DNA of 64,000 nucleotides. Source: Chlorobium sp. Lineage in GTDB: Bacteria > Bacteroidota > Chlorobiia > Chlorobiales > Chlorobiaceae. The stretch covers positions 1 through 64,000 of the forward strand of contig SZXV01000013.1 in the NCBI GenBank assembly GCA_005862225.1. Reading direction: 5' to 3'. The position numbers were made by a program, and so were the translations under genes. Each line of letters opens with the position of its first letter. The first letter of the stretch is position 1. Positions 1 to 16,933 of the stretch are shown here, one piece after another. Under the pieces are notes generated by a model. The model was not told where the DNA came from and did not search any database. It saw only the letters and a program-made list of their open reading frames with translations.

Positions 1-1259
1 TATTTTTTATTCACTATTTTATCGTACGACCAGCAATACCCACCAGCCTTGGCTTTTTGTCCTTTACATACCATTGAAATATTTGAACTATTAATTTTCA
101 TTTTCCTTGATGCATCTGAAATCGAAATAAACTTTGATACAACTTCACCTGTATTAGGGTCAATCATATTCACTTGTTTACGTTTTACTTTTGTTACTTT
201 TTCAATTGCACATTTTGGGCATCCAGTACCATATGTTCTATGTCCAATGGTTGATTCATAACTATAACCGCAACTAAAGCATTTCCACCAGATTTTGTGA
301 TCTGATCTAGGCTTAAACATACCAGGTTTCAAATTTCCATTTTTGGTTGGGTGCCATTCTTCTGCAATTTGAGGAAATTTATCTAAAAAAGATTCATTTT
401 CCAGAGTAAATCTGTAATTCTGTATCTTATATTTATCACGCTCTATGTTTACATCTATGGGGCATTTAGTCAACCAGGTATTGGAAAAATTTATTCGTCT
501 AAGAATTTCTTTAATTATATGTTCAAGGTTTTTAGGCTCATATAGTTTATTCGTTCCAAACTGATAATCAGCAACTATTGAACCCAGTTCAGGGAATTTT
601 TCTCGCAATCTTATTAGTTTTATGCCTTTTTCTTGGCACTTTGAATACTTTAATTGTTCTCGCTTAATTGTATCTTTTTTATGCCATGCTTCGCCGTCAT
701 ACTCGATTGCATACCTTATTGAAGGTATAAAAATATCCAGCTCCATTCTACCAAGGAAACTTGACTTATAACGGCTTATAGCATCAGGGTATAGTTTTTT
801 GATATAAAAAAATGTTGCTTGTTCTGCAAATGATGTCTGCCTTCCTGAGTTACAAATTGGACAATTAGTTCCTGATGTCCTATGAAGTATGGTTGCTGGA
901 TAATCATGTCCAAGTGGGCAAAGCCACAAAACTTTCTTACCACTTCCATGTGTAACATTTTTAGGAGTTAAATCACCATTTTTGGTTGGATGCCATTCAT
1001 TTGCGAGTAATTGGTGAGTTGTTCCTAAGTCATTTACTCCTTCAACGACAACTCTATTTGCGCAGAGAGGACACCCTCTTTCTAGAACTGAACGATTACT
1101 AATTTTTGCCTTCCACGTATATCTACATTTGGAGCATATCCATGAGACATTTTTATTGCTAGCCCTAGTTAGTTTACTGGGATCGAAGATTTGATTCGCT
1201 TCATAGTCCCATTCATTCATAAGCGAAGCATCATCAACGATATACAGTTTTTTAACCAT
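1..1259 (-). CDS. Zinc-ribbon / VSR-like endonuclease / NUMOD1-like protein (integron cassette 4, reaches window edge)
   Basis: An uninterrupted frame runs from ATG at 1259 to the window edge, 419 codons. The next codon begins TA, so a stop may lie exactly at the edge. Two CxxC...CPxC ribbons come first (C42/C45...C63/C66; then a second pair ending CPIC near residue 135). At about 165-215 follows a VSR-like nuclease signature, IEYDGEAWH, then KGIKLIRLRE. A third ribbon (CFSCGYSYES...GCPKC) lies at about 330-355, and a NUMOD1-like tail (ISDASRKMKINSSNISMVCKG) at about 370-400. Such repeated ribbons resemble the 'probable zinc-ribbon' DUF4379 family, often joined to short endonuclease domains. 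A DNA-cleaving role is inferred, not shown. It sits directly downstream of an attC-like site and is AT-rich compared with cassette 1. Confidence 0.75.
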   Translation of the reverse strand, partial: MVKKLYIVDDASLMNEWDYEANQIFDPSKLTRASNKNVSWICSKCRYTWKAKISNRSVLERGCPLCANRVVVEGVNDLGTTHQLLANEWHPTKNGDLTPKNVTHGSGKKVLWLCPLGHDYPATILHRTSGTNCPICNSGRQTSFAEQATFFYIKKLYPDAISRYKSSFLGRMELDIFIPSIRYAIEYDGEAWHKKDTIKREQLKYSKCQEKGIKLIRLREKFPELGSIVADYQFGTNKLYEPKNLEHIIKEILRRINFSNTWLTKCPIDVNIERDKYKIQNYRFTLENESFLDKFPQIAEEWHPTKNGNLKPGMFKPRSDHKIWWKCFSCGYSYESTIGHRTYGTGCPKCAIEKVTKVKRKQVNMIDPNTGEVVSKFISISDASRKMKINSSNISMVCKGQKAKAGGYCWSYDKIVNKK

Positions 1260-1271
1260 AATTATAAAATA

Positions 1272-1358
1272 GCATAACAACTATAATCAGCCGTCCGGCC
1301 ACTGCCCGTGCTATTTGGACATCGCGTGTTCCGGGTCAGCTGGATTAGATTGTTATGA
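1272..1358 (-). repeat. attC-like site 3 (end of cassette 3)
   Basis: On the minus strand it opens with TCATAAC (1352-1358) and closes with the core GTTATGC (1272-1278), 87 bp in all. The inner arms are imperfectly complementary (AATCCAGCTG near the start against CGGCTGATT near the end). It lies between the stop of the 80-aa gene and the start of the 419-aa gene. It is longer and less regular than the other two sites. Confidence 0.6.
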
Positions 1359-1373
1359 CAAACTTGCAAATGT

Positions 1374-1616
1374 CTAATCTTGTTTGAAATAACGGCTGAT
1401 ATCATTTACCTTTTTCATTTCCTCTTGAATATGGGCGGCACTGCAACCCTCGGCTTTTAACCAATTTTCGATTTCGGCAAGATACTTTTTAAATCCAACA
1501 TTGGCTTTAATTGCTGCCTCCAGAAGCTCTGCAGCTCTCTCGGAATCAAGAGAATGGCCAGCAAACTTTTTATCAACAGATCCAAAACTACCCGGAATTT
1601 TGTCTTTCCAACTCAT
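1374..1616 (-). CDS. Hypothetical protein, integron cassette 3
   Basis: An 80-aa acidic/basic, probably helical protein (MSWKDKIPGSFGSVDKKFAG start). It has no motif I recognise, no cysteine cluster except one Cys, and no membrane segment. The ATG is preceded on the minus strand by AAGGAGAATATAGAG, a good ribosome binding site (AAGGAG about 8 nt upstream). It fills the whole cassette between attC-like sites 2 and 3, which supports it as the cassette gene. The function is unknown. Confidence 0.7.
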   Translation of the reverse strand: MSWKDKIPGSFGSVDKKFAGHSLDSERAAELLEAAIKANVGFKKYLAEIENWLKAEGCSAAHIQEEMKKVNDISRYFKQD

Positions 1617-1642
1617 CTCTCTATATTCTCCTTATTTATTTC

Positions 1643-1703
1643 GTTATAACGCTGTAAATCAGCTGCGCGTCTTTTTGCATCGGCTGTATTTGCCTTGTTA
1701 TAT
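1643..1703 (-). repeat. attC-like site 2 (end of cassette 2)
   Basis: On the minus strand it opens with ATATAAC (1697-1703) and closes with GTTATAAC (1643-1650), about 61 bp. The arms are AATACAGCCGATGC and GCGCAGCTGATTTACAGC, which pair with bulges around a short loop. The opening ATATAAC is the exact complement of GTTATAT at the 5' border of cassette 2 (2479-2485), as expected if this cassette once circularised. Confidence 0.65.
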
Positions 1704-1712
1704 GCGAACCAG

Positions 1713-2455
1713 CTAGTTCTCAATCTGATCATCAACAAAGCCATCCCAGTTAAATGGGACACGCAGCAACTCATGATTACTCATATATACAACTCTTGGT
1801 AATTCAGGCTTGACCGAAGCATCAAATAATAGCCTTACTTCGTCTTCTCCAGAAAATTGTGTACGGACAACAGCTGCGCTCGCGGCAAGCATGGAACCGG
1901 TGCTCTCCATGTGATTTAAAACTACAGTTGGATTTTTCATTGCTCGGATCAAAATTGGTTCTTGTATTCAACATTTATTAGCCAAGCCCTATGCATATAT
2001 AGACGGTCACTATTCGACATCAAACGATCTAATAGCTTACCTACCGTAGTGGATATTCTTACCGCTTTTTTCCCATGTGAGAAGCTCACCCAATCGGCGG
2101 CGTTTGGACTTGAGCGATCAGTCCAGCAAAGTGCGTAAAATGATCTGACAAGAGAACCATAGTCAATTGCCCCCCCCGTTACCGTATCGATACCGGTTAC
2201 ATTTTCTAACGGGTTCTCAAGAGGATCTTTCCAGACAGTTGAAGATGCAACTGGTAGCGTCAGATATCCTTCTGAAACATCTTTTTCATAATAATCTCTT
2301 TGGAAAATCCTATGTATTTTTTTAAATGGATCTAAACCAAAAGAGTTTCTTAACTTGTATTGCTCAAGCATCTCACCGCAATAAAGATCTTTTCCTTGAA
2401 AGTCTAACTCTCTGATTTTACTTTGAGCCTTTTCAAATTCTTCAAATTTATTCAT
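1713..2455 (-). pseudogene. Frameshifted hypothetical gene, integron cassette 2
   Basis: The first frame starts at ATG 2455 (MNKFEEFEKAQ) and stops at 1949 after 168 residues. A second frame begins at once, overlapping by 4 nt (TTG at 1952), and runs 79 residues to 1713. No attC-like site, ribosome binding site or ATG separates them, and together they fill one cassette. The end of frame one (LINVEYKNQF) and the start of frame two (ILIRAMKNPTVVL) read as neighbouring pieces of one protein of about 247 residues if one base is restored near 1955. I therefore call a frameshift; real translational coupling or a sequencing error are the alternatives. The segment ending DWVSFSHGKKAVRI faintly resembles DUF2971-type cassette proteins. 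No function can be assigned. Confidence 0.6.
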
Positions 2456-3275
2456 TTCTGAGACCGAGTAATTTGGAGATATAACGCTCCGGTTCAGCGG
2501 CGGCGCGTGAGCGCCCCGTCCGCTGCAACCGGTTGTTAGGACACGTTGCGCTGATGGCTGATTTGAGGGCTTTCTCAAACTGCTTCATTCCTCGGGGTGT
2601 ATACTCATATTCAATGTAGCGGATTGCTCTGAGGTCAAACGGAATGTCATCCTTGTTCTGGGTGATTAGTATGACCGGTTTGCCAAGCGTGTGAGCGATG
2701 CCAATCTCATAGAAGACATTTGGATTGCGGCCTGTACACTCTGCGATGACCGCAGTAGCCCCTAGCAGCGAACGCCAGATGTCTTTCATGATCTCATGTG
2801 CGCCAAAGAAGTCGTCGGCCCGCCCGATTGCCAGCGACATCCCCGATACGACCTTCTGAATGTGATCTTGGTAGACCGGCAGAAGATCGTTCGAGAATGG
2901 CATCAGCATGAACAGGTCTAGGCAATCATCAACTTGAATGTCGGGTACACCGAAGAATGGCTCGACGACAATCGAACGTCCACGTTTCATCTTCGCAGCT
3001 TCAGGAAGACTAACGCCAAGCGCATGCTGTGTCTGAGCGGCTCGCGGCGTGAGTCGAATCTCGCCAGTCGGGAACCGGAAACTTCCAGGATCGAGGGGAC
3101 CATCGACTTCTAAGAGACCAGCGACGACGAGTTCCTGAAGCGCTTCCGCAATCCAGAACGTGAGCGAATTCCTCTCGGTTGGGTCACGCCCCAAAGCGCG
3201 ACACAGCGATGCCCAGTTTGTGGCCTGTCCTCCACGTATCAGGAGAAGGATTTGGGCACCGGTTGGCTTGTCCAT
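2448..3275 (-). CDS. NDT/TIR-like nucleotide-binding protein with N-terminal winged helix (integron cassette 1)
   Basis: 275 aa. Residues 1-90 look like a winged-helix DNA-binding unit (QATNWASLCRALGRD...LQELVVAGLLEVDG). Residues about 115-245 carry the pattern of nucleoside 2-deoxyribosyltransferase-like/TIR-like effector domains: FMLMPF, then AVIAECTGRNPNVFYEIGIAH, then GKPVILITQ and PFDLR. In relatives the Glu of the YE(I/L)GxAH motif is the likely catalytic or NAD(P)-contacting residue. The last 30 or so residues (from NNRLQRTGRSR) are encoded by the attC-like site itself, so the frame reads through the recombination site and ends 8 nt inside the next gene. This tail is probably not part of the original fold. 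A defence or nucleotide-sensing role is inference. Confidence 0.75.
   Translation of the reverse strand: MDKPTGAQILLLIRGGQATNWASLCRALGRDPTERNSLTFWIAEALQELVVAGLLEVDGPLDPGSFRFPTGEIRLTPRAAQTQHALGVSLPEAAKMKRGRSIVVEPFFGVPDIQVDDCLDLFMLMPFSNDLLPVYQDHIQKVVSGMSLAIGRADDFFGAHEIMKDIWRSLLGATAVIAECTGRNPNVFYEIGIAHTLGKPVILITQNKDDIPFDLRAIRYIEYEYTPRGMKQFEKALKSAISATCPNNRLQRTGRSRAAAEPERYISKLLGLRNE
2479..2542 (-). repeat. attC-like site 1 (end of cassette 1)
   Basis: The clearest of the three sites. On the minus strand it opens GTCCTAAC (2535-2542) and closes GTTATAT (2479-2485), 64 bp. Arm CCGGTT pairs with AACCGG and CAGCGG with CCGCTG, leaving a single unpaired G between the two blocks on one side only, the extrahelical-base asymmetry typical of attC. 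The central loop is GC-rich. GTCCTAAC is the exact complement of GTTAGGAC at the 5' border of cassette 1 (3293-3300). Confidence 0.8.
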
Positions 3276-3292
3276 CGCGTGTTACCTTTCGT

Positions 3293-3458
3293 GTCCTAAC
3301 AATAATTAGACTGATCCGCCTAAACCGCAGATTTTTGAATAGTAACCCATATAAGAGGCAAATTACAAACTACTCGAAATACCGTTAATCGTTTTAATAA
3401 AAAATACTTAACCATTGTATTACGTTTTATTTTAGCGTCTTATACGGATCGGCATAAC
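3293..3458 (-). other. attI/first-junction region without a gene
   Basis: This stretch lies between the core GTTATGC (3452-3458), 8 nt past the integrase-stub stop, and the core GTTAGGAC (3293-3300) that begins cassette 1. It is AT-rich and holds no reading frame of note. GATCCG near the first core is complementary to CGGATC near the second, so it may be a decayed gene-less cassette or part of attI. The attI site itself cannot be delimited without a homologue. Confidence 0.4.
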
Positions 3459-3466
3459 AACGTTGC

Positions 3467-3730
3467 TTACAAGCCATCAACAGGACTTTTTACTCCATGG
3501 CCACCTTTGTTCAAAACATGGGTATAAATCATCGTGGTGCTTACATCTTTATGGCCCATTAATTCCTGAATAGTGCGAATATCATACCCAGCCTCAAGTA
3601 AATGTGTTGCAAAAGAGTGCCTAAATGTATGGCAAGTGGCTCGTTTTATCAATTGTGCATGAAAGTTTCGGTGAACGACACAATACCTGAGGATATACAG
3701 GTACTCGTAAATCTGCATGGAGATCCGCAA
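3467..3730 (-). pseudogene. intI: C-terminal remnant of integron integrase (tyrosine recombinase)
   Basis: The frame shows the end of a tyrosine recombinase from residue about 31 on: [20 protein letters not shown], then [18 protein letters not shown] and [12 protein letters not shown]. It keeps the HxxR, the GH and the Tyr nucleophile of the catalytic set. The wording of this C terminus, including the GGxGVxSPxD tail, is typical of IntI proteins. Full IntI is about 310-340 aa; here the N-terminal core-binding domain, the first catalytic Arg and the IntI-specific insertion are missing. The first 30 residues (about 3640-3730) do not look like IntI. It is a truncated, presumably inactive gene ending next to the array. 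Confidence 0.8.
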
Positions 3731-3910
3731 TCATCTTGTCAGTCCATTATTTGCTTTCTCACAAAAAAATCACAGCGATATTATAACAAAAATAATACTC
3801 CCCATCAAAAAAACAGGCAACCACAACATCGGCATTTTCCGCATGAACCTTGTGTAAATTTCAACTTTAGTAATATCTTGAGCAGCATAACAAACCCTTA
3901 CCATGCCACT

Positions 3911-5176
3911 ATGAGCGAGCTTCTCTTGATCAACATTACAGGCCCCGACAAACCTGGCCTGACCTCGAAAATAACCTCAATCCTTGCTGGCTATAAAGTG
4001 CCGGTGCTTGATATTGGTCAGGCGGTTATTCACAATCATCTGTCGCTGGGGATGTTGGTGGAGGTGCCGAAAGAGTCGGCCTCTTCGCCGGTGCTGAAGG
4101 ATCTGCTTTTCTGCGCTCATACGATCGGCATTCAGATCACCTTTACGCCGGTTACCGATACCGAATACAACGACTGGGTGCATGAGCAGGGCAAGCACCG
4201 TTATCTGCTCTCGCTGCTTGCGCGAAAGATTACCGCTGAGCAACTGGAGCGGGTGTCGTCGATCATCACCGGGCACAACCTCAATATTGAGACCATCAAT
4301 CGCCTCTCGGGTCGTATTCCTCTTGAAAACGAGAATGCTGGACACACAAAGGCCTGCGTGGAGTTTTCGATACGGGGCACGCTGCTGAGCGAAAACAGCT
4401 TCCGCGAACAGATGCTTGCCATTACCGATACGCTTGGCGTTGATATCGCGTTTCAGGAGGACAACATTTTCCGGCGCAATCGTCGTCTGGTGGTGTTTGA
4501 TATGGACTCTACCGTGATTACCTCTGAAGTGATTGATGAGCTTGCCATCGAGGCTGGCGTCGGCGCTGAGGTGGCGGCAATTACTGAACAGGCGATGCGT
4601 GGGGAAATCGACTTTACCGGCAGCCTTCAGCGGAGGGTCTCCCTGCTGAAAGGGCTTGATGAACATGTTCTCGAAAAAATTGCTCAACGCCTTCAATTGA
4701 CTGAAGGAGCTGAAACGCTTTTTCATAACCTCCACAACCTTGGCTTCAAGACCGCTATTCTCTCTGGTGGCTTTACCTATTTCGGCCACTATCTCCAGAA
4801 AAAGCTGAATATCGATTACATCTATGCCAACACGCTTGAAATTGACAATCACCGGTTAACCGGCAAGGTGATCGGGCCCATTGTTGATGGCAAAAGAAAG
4901 GCTGAACTGCTGGAGATTATTGCGAAAAAGGAGAACATCCGGCTGGAACAGACCATTGCCGTTGGTGATGGCGCCAATGACCTCCCGATGCTGGGCAAAG
5001 CGGGACTCGGCATCGCTTTCAGGGCAAAGCCCATTGTGAGGGAGAGCGCAAAGCAGGCTATCTCAACCCTCGGGCTTGATGCCATTCTCTATCTGATGGG
5101 ATTCAGGGATCGCGACGACCTTTCGGTCAGTCAACATACTCCACAAACTGCTCAAAATCCTCCTGACGTGGCATGA
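3911..5176 (+). CDS. serB: Phosphoserine phosphatase with N-terminal ACT domains
   Basis: 421 aa. Catalyses the last step of serine synthesis, O-phosphoserine to serine plus phosphate, in the cytoplasm. Residues 1-175 form one or two ACT-type regulatory domains ([20 protein letters not shown]). The HAD phosphatase part has motif I DMDSTVI at about 197 with the nucleophilic Asp, SGGFTYF as motif II, and [10 protein letters not shown] at about 352 as the Mg-binding motif. The frame is open for about 100 codons upstream, but that part overlaps the integrase remnant and has no homology, so I start at ATG 3911, where the ACT domain begins. The 3' end overlaps the convergent ferredoxin gene by 50 bp. 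Confidence 0.95.
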
Positions 5177-16154: not shown

Positions 16155-16933
16155 ACAACTTGCTGAACAATAGTTGTCGTATCTGAATAAACTGATGTAC
16201 ACTTCTCTTTATAAACACTTAAGTTTGCTGTGGCTCTATTACAGCAAACTTAAGTGTTTATAATTTATAATGCCTGCGATTCTCTCAGAATCAAAACCAA
16301 TAGATATATAAGGGCGCCTTTATAAATTTATTCCTTGATCCGGTTGCTTCATTCATTTTGCCATCAATTCAAATCGCTCACTGAGATTTAAATATCTGCC
16401 CATAATTCTTGACTGCATATTCTTATTTCCATCGACGCAGCAAGTCAGCTTTGATTCCTGAACTGGCAGCAGTCTCTATGATTGATTAATGACATTATTA
16501 TTTTACTTGACTCACATTACACAGATTCTTAAATTAAAATTGTAATAGAAAGTATTTTTTTTAGCGGCTGCTCCTTAAGTGAGCTATTATTCTCCAGAAC
16601 ATCTGCATTTATCGCGCTAAGCGTTTTACGACATTTTCATTACAGACAAAGGTATAAACTCTAACTTTTTGAGTTGGGTTAACGTTTTGTCAGAAGACTT
16701 TTATTGGGATTAAGGTTTTCTATTCTGGCGCTTTAACAATCGTTAATAATGACTTGCCAAGCCAAGCCTAGAGTATTATTATATAATAATATATTCGCTT
16801 TTTCCATGCTATAGAATCCTTGAAGTAAAGCTTAGAGGATGCTATACCTTAAAGACTTGAGTGTCGGTGTTTTATTCGTATCAATCTGATTATTTTTAGC
16901 TTCCATAAATAAAACAGAGAGGAGAAATTGACT
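16155..16933. other. AT-rich 779-bp gap before the foreign gene
   Basis: No credible gene, tRNA or insertion sequence was found. It contains one perfect inverted repeat (16211-16261, listed separately) and long A/T tracts. It marks the left side of an accessory insertion between accC and rpoC. The only clear expression signal is the ribosome binding site GAGGAG before 16934. Confidence 0.6.
16211..16261. repeat. Perfect 21-bp inverted repeat downstream of accC
   Basis: The arms (16211-16231 and 16241-16261) are exact reverse complements around the 9-nt loop GGCTCTATT; the stem core is CACTTAAGTTTGC. It lies 57 bp after accC. No T-run follows, so it is not a textbook terminator. It could still end accC transcription, or be the mark of a small mobile element. 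Confidence 0.7.

Follow-up and report, generated by a model that had tools for sequence, protein, structure and literature searches.

What happens to a chromosomal integron once its integrase has been lost, and can the cassettes behind it still change? The usual picture of an integron is of one integrase, one attI site and one long array of gene cassettes. The question is raised by the first 3,734 positions of a 64,000-nucleotide stretch of Chlorobium sp. DNA (assembly GCA_005862225.1, contig SZXV01000013.1, positions 1 to 64,000; hereafter the window), which hold an integron with a broken integrase gene (intI). We propose, with a probability of roughly 60%, that this is the head of a reverse integron from which intI has been deleted and whose attI belongs to a dispersed family, and that IntI encoded at one place would have exchanged cassettes at the copies in trans. 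The reverse integron is real, its integrase is dead and it is known in kind; the new part, undescribed in the open-access literature searched as judged by titles and the beginnings of abstracts, is the dispersed family of intI-less attI copies with homology breaks at their cores.

The integron runs from 3734 down to 1 on the minus strand. The broken intI and attI come first, then four cassettes separated by three attC sites, in the order intI remnant, attI, cassette, attC, cassette, attC, cassette, attC, cassette (Table 1), with the last cassette cut at window base 1, where the contig ends. Its neighbour genes are serB and alaS; beside them, in this Chlorobiaceae group, stands a reverse-type sedentary chromosomal integron, of which the window holds the head. 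An initial annotation, made from the sequence alone, had placed an integron at 1-3730 with a core site, an integrase stub and all elements on the minus strand, and each of these elements was recovered here. The multi-copy nature of attI lies outside the window and was thus invisible to it.

The source genome (G000) comprises 2.50 Mb in 13 contigs (C numbers), window base 1 being the first base of contig C10. It was compared with 65 genomes of the same genus (G numbers), many of which are in tens to hundreds of contigs; fetched loci are numbered L, with L060 and L058 being loci on contigs C4 and C11 of G000. A search of these genomes with window positions 3285-4100 revealed that about 180 bp beside the core recurs, and a model (R2) built from 24 attI copies found matches in 55 of the 65, up to 16 per genome, in counts that include fragments and some opposite-strand shadows. 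In G000 itself the 13 matches at E≤0.01 resolve into six full-length copies, four fragments elsewhere and three shadows. Five of the six full-length copies have no adjacent integrase gene, and three of these five have attC downstream; a same-strand open reading frame (ORF) starts 24-70 bp past the core in five of the six, the C13 copy falling outside that count. An exact attI pattern run against a collection of 84,980 species, one genome each, returned 21 stretches, all from Chlorobiaceae, although records close to the window may be omitted from that result. The element was also considered as a long attC, a reading abandoned once the cores at its ends were seen to be direct and not inverted.

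Where the integrase is whole, attI is on the strand of intI and adjoins its 3' end in at least eight of the 12 genomes with a full intI (G016, G023, G009, G085, G022, G013, G026 and G011), the remaining four being absent among the attI matches listed. Genomes with a full intI have a median of 8.5 attI matches against 3 in the other 53 (p 0.001, relatedness ignored). In G074, G078, G005 and G017 attI copies are present, yet no IntI match is found at E≤1e-26.

Three of the intI-less copies in G000 carry arrays of their own: on contig C4, attI is accompanied by five attC sites on its strand, and on C13 and C11 by one attC each. The C4 attI starts directly past the stop codon of rmlC (rfbC), and rmlD (rfbD) resumes about 11 kb further on, after a stretch with 12 same-strand ORFs of at least 90 aa in a mechanical ORF list. 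The query used for this locus matched 61 of the 65 genomes, and in 10 of 29 fetched loci from relatives rmlD is joined to rmlC at the very insertion point (rmlC of G074 is 96% identical). As a 7-bp near-repeat, the beginning of rmlD flanks the 11-kb insert at both ends; the two repeats, TGAATAT and TGAAGAT (L060 9565-9583, L120 3560-3580), could be a target-site duplication, and the junction does not fall at the GTT core. Contig C11 has three attI copies within 7 kb, one of them followed by a gene and an attC, and 35 bp past the core of one orphan copy on this contig begins the ORF of a Thoeris pair (L058 11755-13163; ThsB 254 bits, ThsA 412 bits).

On C13, attI and then attC lie near the contig end, and C13:1-3000 holds an array whose shared cassettes are 93-95% identical to those in the serB-locus arrays of G018 and G022, together with two 72-bp pieces at 83-85%. 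Because of these shared cassettes, and because the two contig ends point outwards in the orientation required, the C13 array may be the remainder of the window array. Cassettes about 92-96% identical also stand behind different attI copies in different species. A cassette behind an orphan attI (L058 5500-7745) is 96% identical to the DNA directly behind an attC of G088 (L062 15036-15544), with similar copies in G013, G017 and G027. G018, whose intI carries the deletion, and G022, where intI is intact, have about 2.3 kb of cassettes in common (L048 and L041; 97.7-99.0% identity), although their alaS and serB genes are 89.2% and 92.3% identical.

Across the genus we found 76 attC matches in 33 of the 65 genomes and set them against the 150 attI matches listed (of a larger total). 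Thirty-nine have a listed attI no more than 5 kb away, in each case one on their own strand, and 33 of them are downstream and 6 upstream of it; with 13 listed training sites excluded, 27 of 63 lie near attI, 21 downstream and 6 upstream.

The evidence that bears most directly on exchange comes from orthologous attI loci. We compared 53 attI copies with 2.5 kb on each side, from loci chosen non-randomly among the best hits, and retained pairs with fewer than 150 IntI residues near either copy and homology over at least 600 bp upstream through attI, excluding pairs within contig C11 of G000 because those loci overlap. Sixteen such pairs without an intact intI were obtained, in 12 locus groups, and in 14 of them homology stops no more than 7 bp from the recombination core, with different DNA beyond. 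The broken pairs include C11 of G000 against G074 (93.2% over 2.5 kb), C13 of G000 against G078 (83.7% over 2.5 kb) and G005 against G022 (99.7% over 2.5 kb, with just 188 bp downstream in G005); the window locus group supplies three of the 14, namely G000-G018, G000-G088 and G018-G088. In eight of the 14 broken pairs tblastn detects no IntI residue in either member, and some keep a decayed tail at the DNA level. Since the upstream sequence without an intact intI is shared and collinear, intI would have been lost in cis before the exchange took place, which suggests that cassettes have turned over after that loss. Recombination of the IntI type leaves its break at the core and intI had been lost in cis; the recombining IntI would therefore have come from another locus, an ancestor or a donor.

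At the window no functional integrase remains in cis, intI having been broken by a frameshifting deletion of 749 bp, a size taken from the junction and the intact spacing. The stub at 3467-3730 on the minus strand scores 116.5 bits against the integron integrase family TIGR02249 (positions 249-315), against 76.6 for XerC and 73.6 for XerD, so that its assignment to IntI rather than to a XerC-type recombinase stands; the extent given to it does not, the IntI-derived 3' part being confined to 3467-3664. Positions 3664-3734 are the 5' end of intI, joined out of frame to that 3' part, and the 87-aa ORF of the stub lies in a different frame and is not read from the native start, from which only 37 codons precede a stop. 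In the intact loci of G022 and G013, window positions 3298-3664 (or 3285-3664) and 3664-5115 have their counterparts separated by about 750 bp, and G018 and G088 align across the junction gaplessly, giving the same junction in three genomes with G000. A short repeat coding for Phe-His-Ala was considered as the cause of the deletion and dropped, the overlap at the junction being just 1-2 nt. A single clade of deletion carriers was rejected from flank identities: serB of G088 is 85.6-86.5% identical to that of the other five genomes, and that of G018 is 94.8% identical to the intact G013 and 92.8% to G000. These identities make a transfer of the deletion allele from one lineage to another probable.

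The search of the genome for a full intI proposed in the initial annotation gave no match above the family cut-off anywhere in G000; relatives do carry IntI of the TIGR02249 type, in full and above the cut-off in 12 of the 65 genomes, with a partial match over the cut-off in G010. The further suggestion that the array is frozen or moved in trans is best divided: given that the genome search yielded no full intI, the array should be static at present, and the relatives suggest turnover after loss in cis. At C11:38965-39780 of G000 there is an IntI/XerA-like tyrosine recombinase (ORF of 497 aa) whose matches skip positions 180-237 of the IntI model, and similar recombinase ORFs of about 490-500 aa occur in G013, G022, G085 and G088.

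We propose that IntI encoded at one place, whether here, in an ancestor or in a donor, would insert and remove cassettes at scattered attI copies in trans, and that each copy would act as a separate cassette platform, as the core breaks suggest. The attI copies could have spread by duplication or acquisition of whole integrons followed by loss of intI, which would fit those that keep an intI 3' end, and the platforms of G000, where no intact intI was found, would lie idle until an intI arrives. We would give even odds to the broader proposition of a distributed integron in these Chlorobiaceae, in which one IntI serves several chromosomal attI platforms with their own short arrays and these platforms persist when any single intI is lost. 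With more attI copies than integrases, such a genus would offer a natural setting in which to ask whether IntI acts in trans on dispersed platforms; some integrase-less arrays would then be attI-headed platforms and not debris. The Thoeris pair 35 bp behind an orphan attI implies that an integron system may deliver phage defence genes.

The same loci could also belong to plain decayed reverse integrons, with frozen cassettes at the window and with the other attI copies as old relics of complete integrons whose cassettes were fixed while their own intI lived. Decay of intI is common (PMC2426708, seen in part), fewer than 150 aa of IntI lie near 44 of the 53 compared copies, and the DNA motif of the intI 3' end is kept in 34 of them and absent from 19, with two tail types; the C4 copy, the C13 copy and one C11 copy of G000 have no intI tail. 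Orphan copies also look unconstrained. Selection on them was expected to show as higher conservation than in the flanking sequence, and the pair identities refuted this: in the 13 of the 14 broken pairs so compared, attI identity is below that of the flank in nine (77.9 vs 92.7 and 87.3 vs 98.4, for example) and above it in four, so that continuing selection on orphan attI is unsupported. What relic status leaves unexplained is that the core breaks separate loci sharing a collinear upstream region without an intact intI, which points to turnover after loss in cis, and we consider decay alone a doubtful account. Homologous recombination between species, in place of integrase action, might instead have exchanged arrays and platforms. 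It would accommodate the platform segments of G088, 92-98% identical to others beside a serB at 85.6-86.5%, as well as the cassettes common to G018 and G022, whose flanks are less similar; it does not predict breakpoints that fall so regularly at the core, and we hold it to be improbable. Least plausible of all is an artefact of assembly, in which short exact repeats at the attI ends led contigs to be misjoined at the core: the ends of several loci, window base 1 and C13 among them, do lie close to attI or attC, and many comparison genomes are fragmented, but the three C11 copies in the 13-contig G000 are only about 69-88% identical to one another and the attC sites near attI are oriented as expected.

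Several observations nonetheless weigh against exchange by IntI in trans at dispersed platforms. Almost half of the attC matches (37 of 76) have no listed attI within 5 kb, and an attC was detected in the 5 kb downstream of just 27 of the 150 listed attI; therefore most copies have no detected array at the threshold used. At least three attI matches occur in 30 of the 53 genomes without a full intI, homology continues past the core in two of the 16 pairs (G017:C83-G088:C39 and G023:C18-G085:C88), and the poor conservation of orphan attI against its flanks counts here as well. Many comparison genomes are split into tens to hundreds of contigs, and the 21 named records with the attI pattern are all labelled as metagenome-assembled genomes, so that some apparent breaks could stem from wrong joins at attI copies. 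At the window locus the three deletion carriers are not grouped by their flanking genes, and homologous recombination could have spread the allele. For a sigma-70 cassette promoter (Pc) that seemed visible in an alignment, a scan gave no excess over shuffles, with one sigma-70-like site in 3260-3760 against a shuffle mean of 1.9.

Orientation alone is not what sets the locus apart. That intI and the cassettes run in the same direction, all on the minus strand, is correct; the arrangement is already known, including in Chlorobium phaeobacteroides (PMC6557892), and the parts seen of PMC6557892 and PMC3607928 describe such "reverse integrons" from Treponema denticola, C. phaeobacteroides and others. 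As here, intI of T. denticola, C. phaeobacteroides and Blastopirellula marina is transcribed towards attI in the direction of the cassettes (PMC6557892, PMC3607928, PMC7691350); the present integron differs in that intI is deleted and attI exists in several dispersed copies, no multi-copy attI having been met in the portions of those three papers that were seen. Clusters of attC sites lacking integron integrases (CALIN), for example those of Xanthomonas, likewise comprise attC arrays away from any intI and are, according to the part seen of the same report, mobilisable in trans by a functional IntI (PMC12444791), whereas the arrays described here are headed by a recognisable attI. By the definition of at least two attC sites and no neighbouring intI, the C4 array, with five attC and zero IntI residues near attI, is a CALIN; the window array has three attC and an intI remnant only. 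Cassettes of the Delta-attI type in class 1 and 2 integrons also place attI-derived sequence away from intI, but there, as far as the portion of PMC12901181 seen describes them, an attI fragment replaces attC at the cassette end, whereas here an element of about 170 bp heads the arrays.

Table 1. Coordinates of the integron in the window and of the attC sites of the C4 array.
Feature	Position	Strand	Remarks
intI remnant	3467..3734	-	native start ATG at 3734; junction ~3664; IntI C-terminal part 3467-3664
attI element	3294..3471	-	conserved multi-copy segment, ~170 bp; ends in core GTTAGGA (3300-3294)
Cassette 1 ORF, 275 aa	2448..3275	-	weak TIR / nucleoside deoxyribosyltransferase-like match
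attC of cassette 1	2479..2541	-	R3 34.8 bits, E 2e-4; also found by R1
Cassette 2 ORF	1949..2578	-	matches PADLOC PDC-S31; likely ATG ~2455 (inferred)
Cassette 2, second short ORF	1713..1952	-	no family in Pfam or NCBIfam
attC of cassette 2	1644..1703	-	R3 28.8 bits, E 0.003
Cassette 3 ORF, 80 aa	1374..1616	-	no family above cut-off
attC of cassette 3	1272..1358	-	R3 24.3 bits, E 0.02; absent from both training sets
Cassette 4, truncated by contig end	3..1280	-	DUF4379 zinc-finger protein; weak homing-endonuclease-like match
attC sites of the C4 array	L060 10321-10413, 11459-11524, 12379-12447, 15522-15609, 17360-17420	attI strand	attC model

The attC sites of the window were identified with a covariance model (R3) trained on 12 sites, all from other genomes and none from the window. 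Over the 64 kb on both strands it gave four matches at E≤10, of which the top three are exactly the sites predicted from the letters alone at 1272-1358, 1643-1703 and 2479-2542, to within 1 nt, and the fourth is the opposite-strand shadow (21.6 bits) of the 2479-2541 site. They are folding sites in a single orientation, and their scores mean that the prediction survived the covariance-model test that might have undone it. An earlier model (R1; 14 training sites, two of them from the window) agrees on the window sites. A home-made hairpin scan proved too noisy alone and was dropped in favour of fold filters and covariance models, and a degenerate attC pattern gave zero matches.

The mixed composition noted initially was confirmed, cassette 1 having 53.5% GC and cassette 4 34.3% in a window of 47.5%. 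The ORF of cassette 1 starts 24 bp past the core, and its reading frame runs into its own attC. Scanned at gathering level against Rfam and for tRNAs, the window yielded only four tRNAs, at 32 kb. At 16210-16262 the window contains a near-perfect inverted repeat, at which attC model R3 has no match.

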